DNA of 64,000 nt from an uncultured Caulobacter sp. (GTDB lineage Bacteria; Pseudomonadota; Alphaproteobacteria; Caulobacterales; Caulobacteraceae). The notes beneath the pieces were generated by a model. The model ran no database searches. It was given only the letters and a program-made list of their open reading frames with translations, and was not told the DNA's origin. Position numbers and translations under genes: made by a program. The stretch covers positions 124,001-188,000 of the forward strand of contig CAJYMH010000031.1 of assembly GCA_913776195.1 (NCBI GenBank), written 5' to 3'. This document shows positions 1 through 60,916 of this stretch, piece by piece. Each line of letters opens with the position of its first letter. The stretch's first letter is position 1.

Positions 1-657
1 GCGGGGTCTGTGACCTCTGCGGTGGCGGCCACGGTTCTGCGCAGCGCCAACGCCCTGGCCGCTAACGACATCGGCGCAAGCGGAAGTCTGGACACAGATC
101 TCGCCACGGTCGAAGCGATCATCGACGCCGCCGATGCGACCACCTCGGTGGCGACCCTGTCCTATCAGTTCTTCACCGGTAAGACGCCCACGGCCGGGGG
201 GCTGGACTATCTGGTGTCGCCGAACGGATCGAACGCCAACAACCTCAACTCCGCCTACTTCCAGTCCTTCAACCTGGAGAACCGCTACATCAACTTCGCG
301 GTGAACCTGGGGCGCGACGGCGAGGGCAAGGACAAGTTCGCCGCCGCCTACGGCAATCTCAGCCTCATCGACGCGACGAAGAAGGCCTACAAGGAGATCT
401 TCGGATCCACTCCCAACGACAAGAAGGCCGGCGACCTGATCGCCGGACGCGAGGCCTACTTCTACAGCTACGGCAAGACGGACTTGGGTGCGAAGGCGGC
501 CATGGTCGGCTGGCTGCTGGCCGAGGCGGAAAAGGGCGACATCGGCGTCTACGCCAAGTCCAACGCCGACTTTCTGGCCCACCTCATCGAGGGCGCGTCG
601 GCGTCGGTGGACCTGATCGGCGTCTACGGAAAGCCTGACTACGCCTTCGGAGGTTGA
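1..657 (+). CDS. RsaA-like S-layer N-terminal (anchoring) domain protein, 5' partial
   Basis: The frame is open to the left edge, so the start is probably outside the window; a GTG at 10 is possible but has no clear ribosome binding site. The segment around TYQFFTG/LDYL/NAY/ENR(Y)INF matches from memory the N-terminal part of the Caulobacter crescentus S-layer protein RsaA, which anchors the S-layer to lipopolysaccharide. In RsaA about 60 residues precede this motif; here about 55 are visible, so the protein is nearly complete. It stops after about 218 residues with no RTX calcium-binding repeats and no C-terminal type I secretion signal, so it is a stand-alone anchor-type domain. Role at the cell surface is inferred. 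It ends just before a strong hairpin. Confidence 0.72.
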   Translation, partial: AGSVTSAVAATVLRSANALAANDIGASGSLDTDLATVEAIIDAADATTSVATLSYQFFTGKTPTAGGLDYLVSPNGSNANNLNSAYFQSFNLENRYINFAVNLGRDGEGKDKFAAAYGNLSLIDATKKAYKEIFGSTPNDKKAGDLIAGREAYFYSYGKTDLGAKAAMVGWLLAEAEKGDIGVYAKSNADFLAHLIEGASASVDLIGVYGKPDYAFGG

Positions 658-21979: not shown

Positions 21980-23038
21980 CTAGGCGGCGCAGGCTTCGAA
22001 GCCCGTCCGCAGGGCGGCTTCGTCCAGGTTGCGGCCGATGAACACCATGCGGCTATAGCGACGCTCACCCTCGCGCCACTCACGCTGCAGGTCGCCCTCC
22101 AGGATCATGTGCACGGCCTGGAAGACCAGGCGTTTCTCCTCGCCCAGAACGTCGAGGATGCCCTTGGCGCGCAGGATATCCGGCCCTTGTGCGGCCAACA
22201 GGTTGTTGAGCCAAGTGGTGACCTTGGTCCCATCCACGGGCGTGTCCAAGGTCAGTGAGACCCCACGGATGCCGGCTTCGGCCACATGGTCATGGGGGTG
22301 ATGGTCGTGACCATGATCATGATGGTGATGGTCATGATCGTGGTCGTGGCCGCAGTGCTCGTCGTGAACATGGCCGTGCTCGCCGTGGGCCGGGTTCAGG
22401 AACTGCGGCTCGATCTCGGTGATGCGGTCCAGGTCGAACGAGCCGCGGCCCAGGATCGCGTCGAGGGGCACGTTGGAGCGCTGGGCGTGATGAATGGGCG
22501 CCAGGGGATTGATCCGGCGGACCTGAGCCTCGACGGTGCGCAACTCATCGGCCGAAACCAGATCGGTCTTGTTCAGCACGATCTGATCGGCGAAGGCGAT
22601 CTGCTCGACCGCTTCTTTGCTGTCGGCCAGGCGTTGCAGGATGTGCTTGGCGTCGACCACGGTGGTGACGCTGTCCAGCTTGGTGCGAGCCTTGACTTCG
22701 TCGTCGACGAAGAAAGTCTGGGCCACCGGGCCGGGATCGGCCAGGCCGGTGGTCTCCACCACGATCGCGTCGAACTTGCCCTTTCGTTTCATCAGGCCGG
22801 ACAGGACGCGGATCAGGTCGCCGCGCACCGTGCAGCAGACGCAGCCGTTGTTCATTTCGAACACTTCCTCGTCGGTATCGACGACGAGATCGTTGTCGAT
22901 GCCGACTTCGCCGAACTCGTTGACGATCACGGCGTACTTCTTGCCATGATCCTCGGTGAGAATGCGGTTCAGCAGGGTGGTCTTGCCGGCGCCGAGGTAG
23001 CCGGTCAGGACGGTGACGGGAGTCTGTTCGATGCTCAT
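21980..23038 (-). CDS. COG0523-family GTPase (CobW/ZigA-like metallochaperone)
   Basis: A 352-residue G3E GTPase. Walker [10 protein letters not shown] is at residues 13-21, the metal-binding CxCC is C66-x-C68-C69 in NNGCVCCT, the G-domain motif is ETTGLADP and NKTD is near residue 160. Between the GTPase and the C-terminal CobW domain lies a His/Asp run of about 35 residues with more than a dozen His (about 217-252), a zinc- or nickel-binding stretch typical of zinc-responsive COG0523 proteins. It delivers or inserts metal under GTP control. It is the second gene of an operon with the membrane protein at 23079. Confidence 0.93.
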
Positions 23039-55220: not shown

Positions 55221-56843
55221 ATGATGAGCAAGCTGGACGCCGCCTGGAGCCGTCTCGAGGCCGCCGCCAAGGACGCGGCCGCCAGGCGCATTGTCGATCT
55301 GTTCCACGCCGAGCCTGATCGCCTGTCGAAGCTGAGGGTGTCGGCAGCAGGTCTTTCGCTCGATCTTTCCAAGCAAAGCTGGACCGCAGACGGTTTCGAG
55401 GCGGCGCTCGATCTGGCCCGCGCGGCGGATGTGGAAGGCGCGCGCGCCGCCATGTTCGCGGGCGAGGCGATCAATACCTCTGAGGATCGCGCTGTCCTGC
55501 ACGTCGCCCTGCGCGCGCCCGAAGACGCCGCCTACAAGGCCAAGGGCGAGGCGGTGATGGCCGACGTCGAGGACGTCCGCGCCCGCATGAAGTCCTTCGC
55601 CGAGCAGGTCCGTTCCGGGGTGGTGAAAGGCTCCACGGGCAAGCCGTTCAAGGCCATCGTGCACATCGGTATCGGCGGATCCGACCTTGGCCCGCGCCTG
55701 CTGTGGGACGCGTTGCGCCCCGTGAAGCCGCAGATCGACGTGCGCTTCGTGGCCAATGTGGACGGCGCCGAGTTCGAGCTGGTCACCGCCGACATGGATC
55801 CGGCCGAGACGCTCGTCGTAGTGGTGTCCAAGACCTTCACCACCCAGGAGACCATGGCCAACGCTCAGGCCGCCCGCGACTGGCTGAGCGCCGCCCTGGG
55901 CCAGGAGGGCGCAAAGGCGCACCTAGCCGCCGTCTCCACCGCCCTCGACAAGACCTCGGCGTTCGGGGTGCCGGATGAGCGGGTGTTCGGGTTTTGGGAC
56001 TGGGTGGGCGGCCGCTATTCGCTCTGGTCGTCGGTCAGCCTGTCGGTGGCCATCGCTGCTGGCTGGGAGACGTTCGAGCGCTTCCACGCGGGTGGCGCGG
56101 CTATGGACGCGCACTTCCGCGACGCCCCGCTGGACAAAAACGCGCCGGTCCTGCTGGCCCTGGCCCAGGTGTTCAACCGCAACGGCCTCGGCCGCCCGGC
56201 CCGCTCGGTGGTGGCCTATGCCTATCGCTTGAGCCGTCTGTCGGCCTTCCTCCAGCAGTTGGAGATGGAATCCAACGGCAAGCGGATCGGAAAGGACGGC
56301 AAGCCCGTCGCGCATGGAACCTCAGCCATCGTTTTCGGCGGCGAGGGGACCAACGTCCAGCACGCCTACTTCCAGGCCATGCACCAAGGAACCGACGTAA
56401 CCCCCATGGAGCTGATCGGCGTGGCGGCGACGGATGAAGGCCCTGCGGGCATGCACGCCAAGCTGTTGTCCAACCTGCTGGCCCAGGCCGAGGCCTTCAT
56501 GGTGGGCCGATCCGAGGACGATGTCCGCAAGGAGCTAGCCGACAAGGGCGTGGACGCCGCGACCATCGACATCATGGCCCCGCAGCGGACCTTCCCCGGA
56601 AATCGCCCCTCGACCCTTATCCTGCTGGACCGTCTAACGCCGGAGACCTTCGGCGCCCTGATCGCCCTCTATGAGCACAAGACCTTCGTCGAGGGCGTGA
56701 TCTGGGGAATCAACAGCTTCGACCAGTGGGGCGTGGAGCTGGGCAAGGTGATGGCGGGGCGTATCCTGCCGGAGCTGGAAGGCGGCCCCCCGGCGGCGCA
56801 CGATCCGTCCACCACGGCCCTGATCGCCAAGCTGAAGGCGTGA
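55221..56843 (+). CDS. pgi: Glucose-6-phosphate isomerase
   Basis: A 540-residue enzyme interconverting glucose 6-phosphate and fructose 6-phosphate. Signature motifs HIGIGGSDLGPRLLWDAL, VSKTFTTQETMANA and, near the C-terminus, GVIWGINSFDQWGVELGK with the catalytic Lys/His region. Start ATG 55221 behind GAGGGAGAG; ATG 55224 is next to it and a GTG at 55200 would be without a binding site. Slightly shorter than the usual 550. Confidence 0.96.
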   Translation: MMSKLDAAWSRLEAAAKDAAARRIVDLFHAEPDRLSKLRVSAAGLSLDLSKQSWTADGFEAALDLARAADVEGARAAMFAGEAINTSEDRAVLHVALRAPEDAAYKAKGEAVMADVEDVRARMKSFAEQVRSGVVKGSTGKPFKAIVHIGIGGSDLGPRLLWDALRPVKPQIDVRFVANVDGAEFELVTADMDPAETLVVVVSKTFTTQETMANAQAARDWLSAALGQEGAKAHLAAVSTALDKTSAFGVPDERVFGFWDWVGGRYSLWSSVSLSVAIAAGWETFERFHAGGAAMDAHFRDAPLDKNAPVLLALAQVFNRNGLGRPARSVVAYAYRLSRLSAFLQQLEMESNGKRIGKDGKPVAHGTSAIVFGGEGTNVQHAYFQAMHQGTDVTPMELIGVAATDEGPAGMHAKLLSNLLAQAEAFMVGRSEDDVRKELADKGVDAATIDIMAPQRTFPGNRPSTLILLDRLTPETFGALIALYEHKTFVEGVIWGINSFDQWGVELGKVMAGRILPELEGGPPAAHDPSTTALIAKLKA

Positions 56844-56857
56844 ATCGCGGCGGGGTA

Positions 56858-56886
56858 TGGTCAGTTAATCCCTTCTCGGCTATAGC
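56858..56886 (+). promoter_or_regulatory. Candidate promoter of the his leader and hisS operon
   Basis: TGGTCA (56858-56863), 17-bp spacer, then TATAGC (56881-56886). GCTATAGC at 56879-56886 fits the Caulobacter housekeeping -10 pattern GCTANAWC with one change; the -35 is weak. Transcription would begin about 56893-56894, essentially at the GTG of the leader peptide. Confidence 0.45.
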
Positions 56887-56893
56887 CCCGCCC

Positions 56894-56971
56894 GTGACCT
56901 GCACCGCGCACCACCATCACGGCCATCACCACCCGACCTCATGGGGGACGGGCCAGGGTCGCGCGGCATAA
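56894..56971 (+). CDS. Histidine-rich leader peptide of hisS-hisZ-hisG
   Basis: A 25-codon frame, GTG start at 56894 and TAA at 56969-56971, reading MTCTAHHHHGHHHPTSWG and then TGQGRAA. Four His codons, a Gly and three more His lie at residues 6-13. It is directly upstream of hisS, hisZ and hisG and ends 87 bp before the hisS start. The His run would make ribosomes stall when charged His-tRNA is low, as in the enterobacterial his leader. No ribosome binding site precedes the GTG, but the apparent promoter would put it at the 5' end of the RNA. Several possible hairpins follow. Seen: codons, position. Inferred: attenuation. Confidence 0.75.
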   Translation: MTCTAHHHHGHHHPTSWGTGQGRAA

Positions 56972-57058
56972 AGCCCAGCACGTCCCGGCCAAAGCCCCCG
57001 CCAAGGCGGAGGCTTGCAGCAAGCGCTCCGTCGTCCTTCCGAACCGACGAAAAGCGCC
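56945..57058 (+). promoter_or_regulatory. Candidate attenuator hairpins between his leader peptide and hisS
   Basis: Three possible stems. P1: GGGACG (56945-56950) with CGTCCC (56981-56986), whose left arm overlaps the leader codons after the His run. P2: AAGCCCCCGCC (56992-57002) with GGCGGAGGCTT (57005-57015), one mismatch, 2-nt gap. P3: GCGCT and CGTCG (57023-57033) with CGACG and AGCGC (57045-57057), which folds over the region just before ATG 57059. No U-tract follows P2, so control may act on translation of hisS through P3 rather than on transcription. Not folded by program. Confidence 0.5.
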
Positions 57059-58528
57059 ATGACCGAAGAAACCTTCCGCCCCGAAGCCCGCGCCCCCCGA
57101 GGGTTCGCCGACAAGCGCGCGCCGCAGCTGCGCTCTGAGCGCGCGATCCTGGAGGCGGTCTCCAAGGTCTACGAGAGCTATGGCTTCGAGGCGTTGGACA
57201 CCGGGGCCTTCGAGTATGCCGATGCCCTGGGAAAGTTCCTGCCAGACAGCGACCGCCCGAACGAAGGCGTTTTCGCCCTGCAGGACGATGATGAGCAGTG
57301 GATGGCCCTGCGCTACGACCTCACAGCGCCCCTGGCCAGGTTCTCGGCGCAGAACTGGGAGACCCTGCCCAAGCCGTTCCGCCGCTATGCCTTCGGCACG
57401 GTATGGCGCAACGAAAAGCCCGGTCCCGGCCGCTTCCGCGAATTCATCCAGTGCGACGCGGACACGGTGGGCTCGGCGCGCCCCGAGGCGGACGCCGAGA
57501 TCATCGCCATGGCCGTGGCCGGCCTGGAAGCCGCCGGCCTGCCGCGTGGCCAGGCGGTGATCAAGATCAACAACCGCAAGCTCCTCAACGGCCTGCTGAC
57601 GGCTGCGGGCGTCGAGAGCGCCGGTCAGAAGCTGGGTGTGCTGCGGGCCGTGGACAAGCTGGACCGCCTGGGCGCGGACGGCGTGAAGCTGCTGCTGGGC
57701 GAGGGCCGCAAGGACGAGAGCGGCGCCTTCACCAAGGGCGCGGGCCTGGGGGCCAAGGCGATCGACTCGGTGCTGGCCTTCGTGGCCGCCGGGGCGGCCT
57801 CGCGCTCTGCGACCCTGGACGCCCTGTCGGCGGTGATCGGCGGTTCGGCCGAGGGCGACGAGGGGCTGGCCGAGCTCGCCGCCATCGACGCGGCGCTGAA
57901 GGGTCTGGGCGTGGCCGATGATCAGGCGCTGTTCGATCCGTCTATCGTGCGCGGGCTGGAGTACTACACCGGCGCGGTGTTCGAGGCCGAGCTTCTGCTG
58001 AGCACCACGGACGAGAAGGGGGAGGCCGTGCGCTTCGGCTCCATCGGCGGCGGCGGCCGTTATGACGACCTGATCGCCCGCTTCACGGGCCAGCCCGTGC
58101 CGGCCACCGGCTTCTCCTTCGGGGTGTCGCGCTTGGCGGCGGCGCTCAAGGCGGCCGGGCGGGACGCGGGCCAGGCGGCGCGCGGTCCGGTGGTGATCAT
58201 CGCCTTCGATCAGGCGCACATGCCGGAATATTTCGCGGTGGCGGGCGAACTGCGCGCCGCCGGCGTCCCGGCTGAGGTCTATCTCGGCGCATCGGGCATG
58301 AAGGCGCAGATGAAGTACGCCGACCGCCGTATGTCGCCCGCCGCGATCATGCTGGGCGGCGACGAGATCGCCGCCGGCACAGTGACGATCAAGGATTTGG
58401 ACCTCGGTCGCGAGCTCGCTTCGGGTGTGTCCGACAACGCCGAGTGGAAGGCCACCCGGCCGGGCCAGCAGACCATCGCGCGGGGCGAGCTGGTCGCCGC
58501 CGTGAAGCGGATCACGGAGGGCGGCTGA
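57059..58528 (+). CDS. hisS: Histidyl-tRNA synthetase
   Basis: A 489-residue class II synthetase that charges tRNA-His. Motif 2-like region RYAFGTVWRNEKPGPGRFREF, histidine-specific motifs IVRGLEYYTGAVFEAE and FGSIGGGGRYDDLI, and a C-terminal anticodon-binding domain (about 390-489). Only ATG 57059 fits the family start; upstream codons are leader. It is the first gene of hisS-hisZ-hisG, with the TGA of hisS overlapping the hisZ ATG. An unusual operon link of tRNA charging and histidine synthesis. Confidence 0.97.
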   Translation: MTEETFRPEARAPRGFADKRAPQLRSERAILEAVSKVYESYGFEALDTGAFEYADALGKFLPDSDRPNEGVFALQDDDEQWMALRYDLTAPLARFSAQNWETLPKPFRRYAFGTVWRNEKPGPGRFREFIQCDADTVGSARPEADAEIIAMAVAGLEAAGLPRGQAVIKINNRKLLNGLLTAAGVESAGQKLGVLRAVDKLDRLGADGVKLLLGEGRKDESGAFTKGAGLGAKAIDSVLAFVAAGAASRSATLDALSAVIGGSAEGDEGLAELAAIDAALKGLGVADDQALFDPSIVRGLEYYTGAVFEAELLLSTTDEKGEAVRFGSIGGGGRYDDLIARFTGQPVPATGFSFGVSRLAAALKAAGRDAGQAARGPVVIIAFDQAHMPEYFAVAGELRAAGVPAEVYLGASGMKAQMKYADRRMSPAAIMLGGDEIAAGTVTIKDLDLGRELASGVSDNAEWKATRPGQQTIARGELVAAVKRITEGG

Positions 58529-59658
58529 TGCGCCTCGAACGGGCTATTCCCGCCGCGGCGCTGGAGGCGATCCGCGCACCATTCCTGAGCGCTGGCGCCC
58601 AGATCGCCGATTCACCGGTGCTGCAGCCGTTGAGCCTGTTGCTCGACCTGTCGGGCGAATCCATGCGGGCGCGCCTGTTCGTGGTCCAAGGCGACGGGGG
58701 TGAGGAACTGGCGCTGCGGCCGGACTTCACCATCGGGGTGGCCCGCAGCCACATCGAGGCGGGAACCGCCATCGGCCGCTACTTCTACGAGGGCAAGGCC
58801 TTTCGCGTCGCGCCGGCCGGCTCCGGCCGCGCCGAGGAATTCCTGCAGATCGGCTTTGAGGCCTTCGGTCCCCCGGAAGGAGCGCGCGCCGACGCCGAGG
58901 TGGCCGCCCTAGCTTGGAAGGCCGCTGTCGCTGGTGGCCGGGGTGATCTGATCCTGCAGCTTGGCGACGTGTCTTTGTTCAGCGCGTTCGTGGACAGCCT
59001 GGATCTGGCCGCGCCGCTGGCCGCGCGCCTGAAGCGCGCCTTCAGTAATCCGCGCCTGCTCAAGGCCGAATTGGAGGGCGAGCCCATTGCGGTCGAGCCG
59101 ACCAGCTCGGGCAAGCTGGCCAATCTGTTGGCGGGTCTGCCGGAGGCCGAGGCGGAGGAGGTCCTGCGGGAGCTCTGGGCCATGACTGGGGTCGAGCCGG
59201 TGGGCGGGCGGCGGCCGGGCGATATCGTTCATCGCCTGATCGCCCGCGCCCAGGCGCAGGACGCCGGCCGCCTGTCCGCCGACGAGATCGCCGCGGTGCG
59301 CGGCTATCTTGCGGTCAGCGATGCGCCGCGCGCCGCCCTGGCGGCGGTTAAGGGGCTGGCGGGCAGCAAAGGCGGCGTCCTTGAGGCGGCTCTAGAGAAT
59401 TGGGATGCGCGTCTGTCGGCCCTGGCGGCGCTTGGCGCGGACGAAGGCCGAATGATCCTGTCGACCGGGTTCGGCCGAGCGTTCGGCTATTATGACGGCA
59501 TGCTGTTCGAGGTGCGCAGCGCCGCCTTGGGCGACGCGCGGCCCGTGGCGGCCGGCGGTCGCTATGACGGCTTGATGCCACGCCTGGGCGGCCAAGCCGC
59601 GGGCGCCGTGGGCTGCATGGTGCGGCCGGCGCGGGCCTATGCGGGAGGGATGGAATGA
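58528..59658 (+). CDS. hisZ: ATP phosphoribosyltransferase regulatory subunit
   Basis: A 376-residue HisRS paralogue that lacks charging activity and forms a complex with HisG. It keeps the class II core (LSLLLDLSGESMRARLFVVQ, LALRPDFTIGVARSHIEAG, GRYFYEGKAFRV, GFGRAFGYYDGMLFEV, AGGRYDGLM). ATG 58528 shares its A with the hisS stop. It is the sensor for histidine feedback in HisG complexes. A longer frame starts inside hisS and is not used. Confidence 0.95.
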   Translation: MRLERAIPAAALEAIRAPFLSAGAQIADSPVLQPLSLLLDLSGESMRARLFVVQGDGGEELALRPDFTIGVARSHIEAGTAIGRYFYEGKAFRVAPAGSGRAEEFLQIGFEAFGPPEGARADAEVAALAWKAAVAGGRGDLILQLGDVSLFSAFVDSLDLAAPLAARLKRAFSNPRLLKAELEGEPIAVEPTSSGKLANLLAGLPEAEAEEVLRELWAMTGVEPVGGRRPGDIVHRLIARAQAQDAGRLSADEIAAVRGYLAVSDAPRAALAAVKGLAGSKGGVLEAALENWDARLSALAALGADEGRMILSTGFGRAFGYYDGMLFEVRSAALGDARPVAAGGRYDGLMPRLGGQAAGAVGCMVRPARAYAGGME

Positions 59659-60629
59659 GCGAGCCCCTGATTTTCGCCATACCTTCCAAGGGACGGCTGA
59701 AGGAGCAGGTCGAGGCTTGGCTTGCTGATTGCGGCTTCAAGCTTGAGACCAGCGGCGGCGCACGCGGGTACAGCGCCGAGCTGTCCGGTCTGCCGGGCGT
59801 GTCGGTGCGCCTGCTGTCGGCCGGCGATATCGCGGCGGCCCTGACCGCTGGCGAGGTTCACCTGGGCATCACCGGCGAGGATTTGCTGCGAGAGCAGGGC
59901 GAAGACCTGGACACGCGCGTGTCTCTGCTGCGCGCCCTGGGCTTTGGGCGCGCCGATCTGGTGGTCGCGGCGCCCAAGAGTTGGCTGGACGTGGACACCA
60001 TGGCCGACCTGGACGAGGTGGGGCACATCCACCTCGCTCGCACGGGCCGCCGGCTTCGAGTGGCGACCAAGTATCTGGCCCAGACCCGAAGTTTCTTCGC
60101 CCGTCGCGGCGTGGCCGACTACCGCATCGTTGAATCCAGCAGCGCCACTGAGGGTGCGCCGGCCGCTGGCGCGGCCGAACTGGTCGTGGATATCACCACC
60201 ACGGGCGCGACGTTGGTCGCCAACGGGCTGAAGGTGTTGTCCGACGGCGTGATCCTGAGGAGCCAAGCGCAGTTGGCCGCCAGCCTTGGCGCATCCTGGA
60301 CCCCTGCAAATCTCGCCTCGGCCCGTCGGTTGCTGATCGCCGTGGAATCGCGTGCGCGGGCCATGGCGCTGGCCACCCTCGTCTGGCCGGCCGAACAGGA
60401 CGTCGCCGCGCGACAAGCCACTGAGAGCTTCACGGCTCAAGGCGCGGCTCGCCGCGCCAATGGCCTGCTGATCGACAAGCGCGATTTGCTGGATGTCTGT
60501 GCTGCTCTAGGCGGGGCGAAGGTGGAGCCTGTGACTGTCGCGCGGCCTGACTATGTCTTCGAGGCCGATTCCGCCGCGATTGCCGATTTGGCCGCACGGC
60601 TCAGTTTAAAAATTGACGCTATAGTATAA
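59655..60629 (+). CDS. hisG: ATP phosphoribosyltransferase catalytic subunit, with extended C-terminus
   Basis: Catalyses the first step of histidine synthesis (ATP plus PRPP). ATG overlaps the hisZ stop (ATGA). Catalytic fold motifs AIPSKGRLKEQVEAWL, VHLGITGEDLL, DLVVAAPKSWLDVD and the PRPP loop AAELVVDITTTGATLVANGL. At 324 residues it is about 100 longer than typical HisZ-dependent short HisG (about 200-230) and a little longer than long HisG (about 300). The C-terminal about 100 residues do not clearly look like the ACT-like domain of long forms. See finding. Confidence 0.95.
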   Translation: MSEPLIFAIPSKGRLKEQVEAWLADCGFKLETSGGARGYSAELSGLPGVSVRLLSAGDIAAALTAGEVHLGITGEDLLREQGEDLDTRVSLLRALGFGRADLVVAAPKSWLDVDTMADLDEVGHIHLARTGRRLRVATKYLAQTRSFFARRGVADYRIVESSSATEGAPAAGAAELVVDITTTGATLVANGLKVLSDGVILRSQAQLAASLGASWTPANLASARRLLIAVESRARAMALATLVWPAEQDVAARQATESFTAQGAARRANGLLIDKRDLLDVCAALGGAKVEPVTVARPDYVFEADSAAIADLAARLSLKIDAIV

Positions 60630-60728: not shown

Positions 60729-60876
60729 TGCCGTTCTTTGTCCCTACCGGGAGACGAGAGCCGCCACAGAACGGCCCAGCTCCTAGGCGTTTCGGGGAGG
60801 AAACGCCCTCTAAGATCGAGTGATCGAGCAATAGCTGAACCCGTCGCGATATCCCCCGCGACGGGTTCAGTGTTTT
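60729..60876 (+). ncRNA. Candidate structured small RNA with intrinsic terminator
   Basis: A chain of stems on the plus strand: outer stem GCCGTTCT (60729-60736) / AGAACGGC (60767-60774) around a TCCC-TACC-GGGA hairpin; a second hairpin GGCGTTT / AAACGCC with an exposed CGGGGAGG loop (60785-60806); a small GATC-GAGT-GATC hairpin (60813-60824); and a terminator stem CTGAACCCGTCGCG / CGCGACGGGTTCAG with TGTTTTT. No coding frame of note. The exact 5' end is unclear: if TTGACA at 60710 is the -35, transcription would start near 60745 and remove the left arm of the first stem. It is not 6S, SRP, tmRNA or RNase P RNA by motif. Confidence 0.5.
60834..60876 (+). terminator. Strong intrinsic terminator
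   Basis: Perfect 14-bp stem CTGAACCCGTCGCG (60834-60847) / CGCGACGGGTTCAG (60856-60869), 8-nt loop, then TGTTTTT. It terminates the candidate RNA (and any read-through from hisG). Confidence 0.92.
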
Positions 60877-60916
60877 TGGGCTTGAGCGTCAAAACCATAA
60901 AACGCGCGTTCCAATG

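Follow-up and report, generated by a model that had tools for sequence, protein, structure and literature searches.

What does a short, histidine-rich reading frame do in front of the gene that charges tRNA with histidine? The question arises in a 64,000-nucleotide stretch of DNA from an uncultured Caulobacter sp. (contig CAJYMH010000031.1; this whole stretch is hereafter the window), where hisS, the first gene of a hisS-hisZ-hisG cluster, is preceded by a frame of 25 codons (VTCTAHHHHGHHHPTSWGTGQGRAA) that starts with GTG at 56894 and stops with TAA at 56969–56971. An initial annotation had described this frame, with seven His codons among residues 6–13, and its existence and coordinates hold; the gap between the leader stop and the hisS ATG (57059) is 87 nt, and a six-frame scan of the whole 64 kb found no other eight-codon stretch with seven His codons. 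The runner-up in histidine richness, at about 22280–22350 on the minus strand, is a His/Asp repeat-like run. We think it likely that the leader belongs to a six-segment, ribosome-operated translational attenuator of hisS-hisZ-hisG. Two features define the leader itself:

56894–56971, forward strand: leader peptide frame of 25 codons with a GTG start, probably leaderless; comparable frames occur in relatives.
56909–56932, forward strand: His-codon run HHHHGHHH (residues 6–13, seven His), the proposed stalling site.

The leader recurs at the same place in relatives. A survey of the family covered 148 genomes with HisS, of which 130 had a covered upstream region (two of them, G121 and G008, with <400 nt) and 18 did not; any frame with ≥4 His in eight codons was counted as a leader. 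Leaders precede hisS in 54 of the 130, distributed by genus as 22/23 in g1 (the genus of the window), 22/22 in g7, 2/2 in g4, 3/3 in g16, 1/1 in each of g6, g14 and g19, and 2/13 in g22; none was found among these upstream regions in g2, g3, g5, g9–g13, g15, g17, g18, g20 or g21. Among 80 named loci (the best 80 of a longer list, three of them with <100 nt upstream), 39 carry a leader, including every Caulobacter and Phenylobacterium record and some metagenome-assembled genomes. Both the His run and the stems, whose absence from relatives the initial annotation had named in advance as fatal to its proposal, are kept in Caulobacter and Phenylobacterium; its third genus for comparison, Brevundimonas, departs from the pattern, with a leader in none of 20 records (one without upstream sequence), as in none of five from Asticcacaulis. 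A covariance model of the leader (R1), run against 200 genomes from the order, gave 24 matches of ≥88 bits, each just upstream of HisS. Across the class, the upstream regions of 19 genomes with HisS of the window type gave one clear His leader (G352, of the same order), and the class-level survey also returned a weak frame with four His upstream of hisS in G298.

Genome survey and named records, which in part represent identical genomes, together yielded 93 leaders, 86 of them distinct. The usual form of the peptide is MTRTPHHHGHHHHPTSPRGIGRVRSL, and the 77 distinct frames are always 23–26 codons long, with ATG starts in 73 and GTG in four. Their histidines are encoded by CAC (276) and CAT (183), intermixed within columns (column 13: CAT 62, CAC 15; column 7: CAT 54, CAC 20; n = 77 for both). 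In a near relative, Caulobacter segnis FS (L131; HisS 98% identical), ungapped comparison with the window gave 45 differences in the 56 positions of 56794–56849 and only five across 56850–57061; both in-frame leader changes are synonymous, and no change falls in the arms of the helices C:D, D:E and E:F described below. By this comparison, the leader evolves as a coding frame with synonymous variation.

An alignment of the 86 distinct leaders delimits conserved segments A, B1, B2 (running to the stop), preC, C, D, E and F, the last of which reaches the hisS start. In the window they correspond to the following:

56933–56942, forward strand: segment A (from the P-T codons onward), conserved in sequence, which may pair with B1 if free of the ribosome (A:B1 z −1.0, without covariation).
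56943–56999, forward strand: B1:C helix, GGGGG at 56943–56947 with CCCCC at 56995–56999, the proposed ON hairpin (from a fold of RNA ending at C).
About 56951–56989, forward strand: B2:preC hairpin around the leader stop codon, inside B1:C (fold; swap test 0/1000).
56992–57015, forward strand: C:D hairpin, AAGCC.CCGC with GCGG.GGCTT, terminator-like and without a U-tract (swap test 0/1000).
57007–57030, forward strand: D:E hairpin, CGGAG.GCTTG with CAAGC g CTCCG, the putative relay helix (swap test 0/1000).
57023–57057, forward strand: E:F hairpin over the bases just 5′ of the hisS AUG (folds; swap test 0/1000).

In E:F, GCGCT/CGTCG (57023–57033) can pair with CGACG/AGCGC (57045–57057). This is the stem that the initial annotation had called P3 and placed before the hisS ATG, its last base being one short of that codon; P1 and P2 have comparable, rather than exact, counterparts in B2:preC with B1:C (56943–56999) and in C:D (56992–57015), and D:E (57007–57030) is a further alternative helix beyond those three stems.

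Covariation was assessed with a swap test, in which pairing energy within a species is compared with that of partners swapped between species, for all 36 pairs of nine segments in the 85 leaders with a usable start codon (1000 permutations, relatedness not corrected for). The strongest pairs were D:E (z −12.6), C:D (−9.1) and E:F (−7.4), with no permutation as good in 1000 for any of them, followed by B2:preC (z −3.7, 0/1000) and B1:C (z −2.6, 7/1000); B1:D, His:D and B1:E lay at z −2.1 to −2.3, and the control pairs C:E, D:F and A:C were unsupported in these leaders. Undivided B was tried as partner for C and rejected, native pairings being worse than swapped ones (z +2.9), and the split into B1 and B2 was made after that result. 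Since C:D, D:E and E:F share arms, an RNA can hold either C:D and E:F together or D:E, with B1:C going with D:E; helices that exclude one another are thus present, and all three covary in the swap test. On a MAFFT alignment of 27 leaders (A1), D:E scored above every one of 500 shuffles for three of the five measures; one of its pairs is UA in 15 leaders and CG in 10. Comparison thus shows a coding leader and the helices C:D, D:E and E:F. We regard it as extremely improbable that the frame arose by chance or serves some unrelated role, such as metal binding, with stems that reflect GC composition: GC-rich DNA does fold strongly anyway, and shuffled sequences sequester C nearly as well as native ones, but conservation and position (54/130), synonymous variation and the swap test contradict such a reading.

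The attenuator that we favour would work as follows. The mRNA would start at the leader start codon or a few bases from it. When charged tRNA-His is scarce, the ribosome would stall on the His run and leave B1 exposed to pair with C; with C taken, D would be free for E, F would be left open and hisS would be translated. When His-tRNA is ample, the ribosome would reach the leader stop and cover B, C:D and E:F would form, and the hisS start would be closed. Expression of hisZ and hisG would follow that of hisS by translational coupling through overlapping stop and start codons. In this scheme the passage from C to F is a folding prediction; we infer that the mRNA is leaderless, that the ribosome stalls, that B1 then captures C, which way the response runs and that hisZ and hisG are coupled to hisS.

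The relay from C to the start codon was modelled in the 83 leaders that were long enough, using the start codon of a second short frame (see below) in about 12 Phenylobacterium-type leaders. With C free, the predicted structures hold a mean of 8.8 E:F and 0.7 D:E pairs; with C removed, mimicking capture by B1, they hold 3.5 and 9.4, respectively. Removal of C raised the accessibility of the hisS start region by >0.05 in 70 of the 83 leaders (84%), as against 107 of 415 dinucleotide shuffles (26%), and took the window from 0.40 to 0.69. As a prediction, this relay is well supported. For the step before it, folds of RNA ending at C gave, as means over 85 leaders, upstream pairing of 59–69% of C while the ribosome sits on the His run, as against 8% when it is at the stop.

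Several results weigh against the model. On the side of the helices, covariation of B1:C is weak (7/1000) and, like that of B1:D, His:D and B1:E, fails correction for 36 tests; on A1, D:E falls short in the count of pairs altered in both partners (465/500) and in that of further pair types (500/500), and C:D is not clearly above the shuffles (35/500), the latter probably owing to a variable extra C in segment C. At the output end, E:F in the window stops one base before the AUG, where there is no clear Shine-Dalgarno sequence, and in part of Phenylobacterium the AUG adjacent to F opens a short frame in place of hisS. On removal of C, accessibility fell by >0.05 in five of the 83 leaders. Sequestration of C is hardly particular to the native sequence, with 0.59 for native against 0.56 for shuffled upstream sequence (native higher in 52/85), and stands at 0.55 without any ribosome; in the window, the contrast between a ribosome stalled at the last His (0.42) and one at the stop (0.30) is small. 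The initial annotation had proposed folding the leader with and without the segment covered by a stalled ribosome, and in whole-leader equilibrium folds of 61 leaders with ribosome masks no switch appeared: mean accessibility was 0.377 with the ribosome stalled at the last His and 0.357 with it at the stop (0.38 and 0.40 in the window). The model therefore needs kinetic, co-transcriptional folding, and attenuators are usually thought to switch kinetically. The modelled link from ribosome stalling to the switch is thus weakly supported.

Two observations on individual relatives belong here. In Phenylobacterium-type loci (such as L140, L141, L148, L154, G088, G098 and G132), the second short frame opened by the AUG beside F has about 18–23 codons, often includes RLAAR and stops immediately ahead of hisS; elsewhere in the Phenylobacterium group this AUG shares the hisS reading frame. 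In G130, a member of the window's genus, the leader promoter and the His run are replaced by AT-rich DNA while segments C to F are kept; a pattern search of G130 for the absent 5′ half of the leader found nothing, and G130 alone showed the D-E motif among 76 leader-less upstream regions. This genome is a natural test of the attenuator model.

Whether control falls on translation or on transcription was judged from what follows C:D. Within the 12 nt that follow this hairpin, the T-richest 8 nt hold ≤3 T in 73 of 85 leaders, four in eight, five in three and six in one; hairpin and U-tract of an intrinsic terminator are thus not found together at nearly all hisS leaders, and the alternative helix E:F occludes the hisS start region, as in a translational attenuator. 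Leader-like elements elsewhere in the same family do carry U-tracts, which makes their absence at hisS meaningful. Three such elements came from weak R1 matches and lie about 200–380 from the start of their stretches. In L313 a Thr-rich frame precedes an aspartate-kinase-like gene (NCBIfam, below the curated cut-off); in L314 the frame contains FWYFGY and the gene behind it is for DAHP synthase (NCBIfam); in L315 the gene behind the frame is N-acetyltransferase-like, with ilvC next (NCBIfam, both below curated cut-offs).

Transcription attenuation, in which C:D would halt RNA polymerase without a U-tract or with the help of Rho and B1:C or D:E would prevent it, is the alternative that we take most seriously, although we consider it unlikely. 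C:D is GC-rich, conserved and placed where a classical terminator would be, 12 of the 85 leaders have 4–6 T in the 8 nt, and the family's other leader-like elements show that U-tracts are in use there; yet the great majority of hisS leaders lack one, and termination at C:D would have no need of E:F, which lies downstream, extends to the start codon and covaries strongly. The sequences therefore favour translational rather than transcriptional control of hisS, as the initial annotation had suggested from the missing U-tract.

Upstream of the frame lies a candidate promoter:

56858–56886, forward strand: putative housekeeping promoter, TGGTCA (56858–56863), a 17 bp spacer and TATAGC (56881–56886), from sequence.

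An extended −10-like element begins at 56879 (GCTATAGC). Of 81 distinct upstream regions, 67 carry the motif (G/C)CTANR with its first base 14–18 nt ahead of the leader start, where shuffled sequence yields 2.5 on average and never more than seven; the motif may be set beside GCTANAWC, the Caulobacter consensus. The usual distance from −10 element to start site would bring the leader start codon to within a few nucleotides of +1, so a −10-like element at 14–18 nt suggests a leaderless mRNA. Shine-Dalgarno-like words precede the leader in 14 of the 81 regions. Identity with L131 runs through 56850–56925, whereas 56794–56849 is not conserved. The region delimited in the initial annotation, from 56858, does take in the promoter-like elements, which were not named there. 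The leader mRNA is thus probably leaderless, with its start codon at +1 or within a few bases of it. For C. crescentus, one study gives 375 mapped leaderless mRNAs and 75.4% of coding sequences starting without a Shine-Dalgarno site (PMC4117421).

The same DNA is also represented in Rfam, on the other strand:

56853–57011, reverse strand: sub-threshold match to RF01528, ‘CC3513 sRNA’ (33.3 bits, gathering cut-off 40, E 0.0011).

Although the window falls short of the cut-off, RF01528 (a small RNA, or sRNA, family) exceeds it in 46 of 75 genomes of the genus, in the Caulobacter vibrioides control genome and in four of seven named loci scanned (L133, L134, L136 and L140), and in 21 of 21 genomes with both strands known it lies opposite hisS. 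CC3513 is said to have been first reported by Landt in 2008; our literature search for it returned unrelated papers only. An antisense sRNA from that strand, possibly pairing with the hisS leader, would account for the Rfam record and its recurrence in relatives, but D:E contains 56 G.U and five A.C cells on the sense strand (an A.C being a G.U on the antisense strand), and the conserved frame and promoter-like element are both on the sense strand. These patterns favour the sense strand over the Rfam strand, and we hold the antisense reading very improbable. Either Rfam has the CC3513 family on the wrong strand or this region also yields an antisense RNA of its own.

We give equally little credence to a further reading, by which the leader delivers ribosomes to hisS by reinitiation, or its RNA or peptide acts in trans in the manner of rnTrpL and peTrpL of Sinorhizobium meliloti. 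The leader frame ends close to hisS, and PMC7298713 reports action in trans for both the attenuator RNA and the peptide of S. meliloti trpL; covariation of D:E and E:F would nevertheless go unexplained.

The genes that the attenuator would control are these:

57059–58528, forward strand: hisS, histidine–tRNA ligase (TIGR00442, 382.2 bits, above cut-off).
58528–59658, forward strand: hisZ (NF008949, 552.7 bits, above cut-off).
59655–60629, forward strand: hisG (TIGR00070, 163.5 bits, above cut-off).

hisZ begins on the last base of the hisS stop codon, and the hisG start overlaps the end of hisZ. Among the named loci, hisZ adjoins hisS in 38 of 38 leader-bearing loci with enough sequence and in 10 of 41 leader-less ones (Fisher p 1.3e-13, relatedness ignored). 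A HisG search of 20 leader-less genomes found a close match (64–72% identical) in six, only a distant one (30–36%) in 12 and none in two; HisG was distant or missing in all 12 leader-less genomes sampled from g3 and g15, and in g3, taken from matching contigs to be the Brevundimonas group, five of six had a distant HisG only and one had none. In these data the leader is confined to loci with hisZ behind hisS, and some such loci lack it. Around the cluster, a glucose-6-phosphate isomerase gene ends at 56843, upstream of the leader, and CrfA, a known Caulobacter sRNA, matches after hisG at 60747–60880 on the forward strand (RF01527, 87.5 bits).

Beyond its strong matches, R1 gave 13 of ≤38.1 bits in the order. 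Ten of these were read: five were leaders before asd, the aspartate-semialdehyde dehydrogenase gene (NF011456, 469.9 bits, above cut-off), three were leader-like frames with U-tracts and two had no evident leader. In 190 genomes of the class, the window aside, R1 returned only matches of ≤31.3 bits in six genomes; the one that was read, in G352, is an asd leader. The five asd leaders, from two families, read MQFAATKTITRKTTHLGGAAGVRAI or MLKTQIIITTKTTRLCGTLRVRAI, with near variants, and are Thr/Ile leaders; searching with the asd protein added seven more, making 12 (L308–L312 and L318–L324). On removal of C, D:E gained at least three pairs in all 12, E:F lost at least two in 11, and accessibility rose by >0.05 in 10; start codons are probably placed too early in L310, L311, L321 and L323. 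In the swap test D:E was clear (1/5000) and C:D (112/5000) and E:F (359/5000) were less so. Within the 8 nt after C:D, nine of the 12 have ≤3 T and three have four or five. Here E:F would cover a Shine-Dalgarno-like word, which is also the mark by which F was located. The Thr/Ile leaders thus appear, from folding, to carry a similar C:D, D:E and E:F relay. Other asd-like genes (45–51% identical) were screened for such leaders at a strict threshold only, and the window's own genome has only an asd-like gene of 47% identity.

It is about an even call whether these cases amount to a Caulobacterales class of attenuator, in which a leaderless frame and a six-segment relay, with the terminator-like hairpin as middle link and translation initiation as output, serve at least hisS-hisZ-hisG and asd while other operons of the family use U-tract terminators, and in which the Rfam family is recorded on the wrong strand.

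A different His leader occurs in another family of the order, f2, where frames of the form MNTxxHHHHHH(A/S/V) lie about 209–231 nt before hisS in nine genomes (L225, L248, L250, L251, L253, L258, L261, L265 and L282). A tenth genome, L254, has an HHHHQQ variant 270 nt before hisS, bringing the total to 10 of 12 f2 genomes with a leader; it is the sole f2 genome read with HHHHQQ, and a tRNA-Gln (TTG) gene lies between its leader and hisS (159–232, minus strand). The start of the f2 leader, ATGAACAC, is complementary to a later GTGTTCAT, and in L254 both sides have changed together (ATGAAAAC and GTTTTCAT). No leader of the f2 type was found in 29 genomes read from three further families.

How much of this is already known? 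The enterobacterial his operon has a transcription attenuator, represented in Rfam as His_leader. The window's leader resembles it in its short frame with a His run, its mutually exclusive hairpins and, as we infer, its signal, the charging of tRNA-His; it differs in that nearly all leaders lack a U-tract, that hisS-hisZ-hisG is controlled, that D:E and E:F extend to the hisS start and that the mRNA is probably leaderless. Neither His_leader nor a T-box model was among the three Rfam matches up to E 5 in window positions 56000–58000. A general account of his-type attenuation is given in PMC9413887, which also notes attenuators with structure at the ribosome-binding site in place of a terminator. 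In Bacillus, His-codon leaders likewise precede hisZ or the hisS paralogue hisS*, but were found through a search for premature transcription terminators (PMC2965389); its authors see no similarity of Firmicutes leaders to those of Proteobacteria, and the paper never mentions Caulobacter.

Translational attenuators of the erm type likewise cover the start region of the gene they control with a hairpin; the hisS leader differs from them in having a leader frame with an amino acid as its signal and a relay of two steps across six segments. PMC1262725 describes leaders before tRNA-synthetase genes and, in Actinobacteria, T-boxes that act on translation, with translational T-boxes before ileS. Within Caulobacter itself, leader coding sequences precede trpS and ilvBN, the latter with transcription attenuation (PMC4117421); these concern other amino acids, and hisS is absent from the main text of that paper. 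The alphaproteobacterial trpL attenuator of S. meliloti similarly starts at the leader ATG, and differs in its Trp codons and in ending at a transcription terminator (PMC7298713). Our literature search, which went by titles and abstracts and left most subscription journals outside its reach, found no His leader before hisS described in Caulobacter or Alphaproteobacteria, nor any six-segment relay or leaderless His leader. His leaders and translational attenuators are of known kinds, while the position before hisS, the six-segment relay and the leaderless His leader appear new.

If the attenuator operates as proposed, Caulobacter, a well-studied laboratory genus, would have a histidine switch linking the charging of tRNA by hisS with hisZ-hisG, the entry to histidine synthesis. 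It would illustrate how an attenuator can be made to act on translation when two further RNA segments follow a terminator-like hairpin, and that ribosome-sensing leaders can be borne by leaderless mRNAs; the meaning of an Rfam small-RNA family would change as well.

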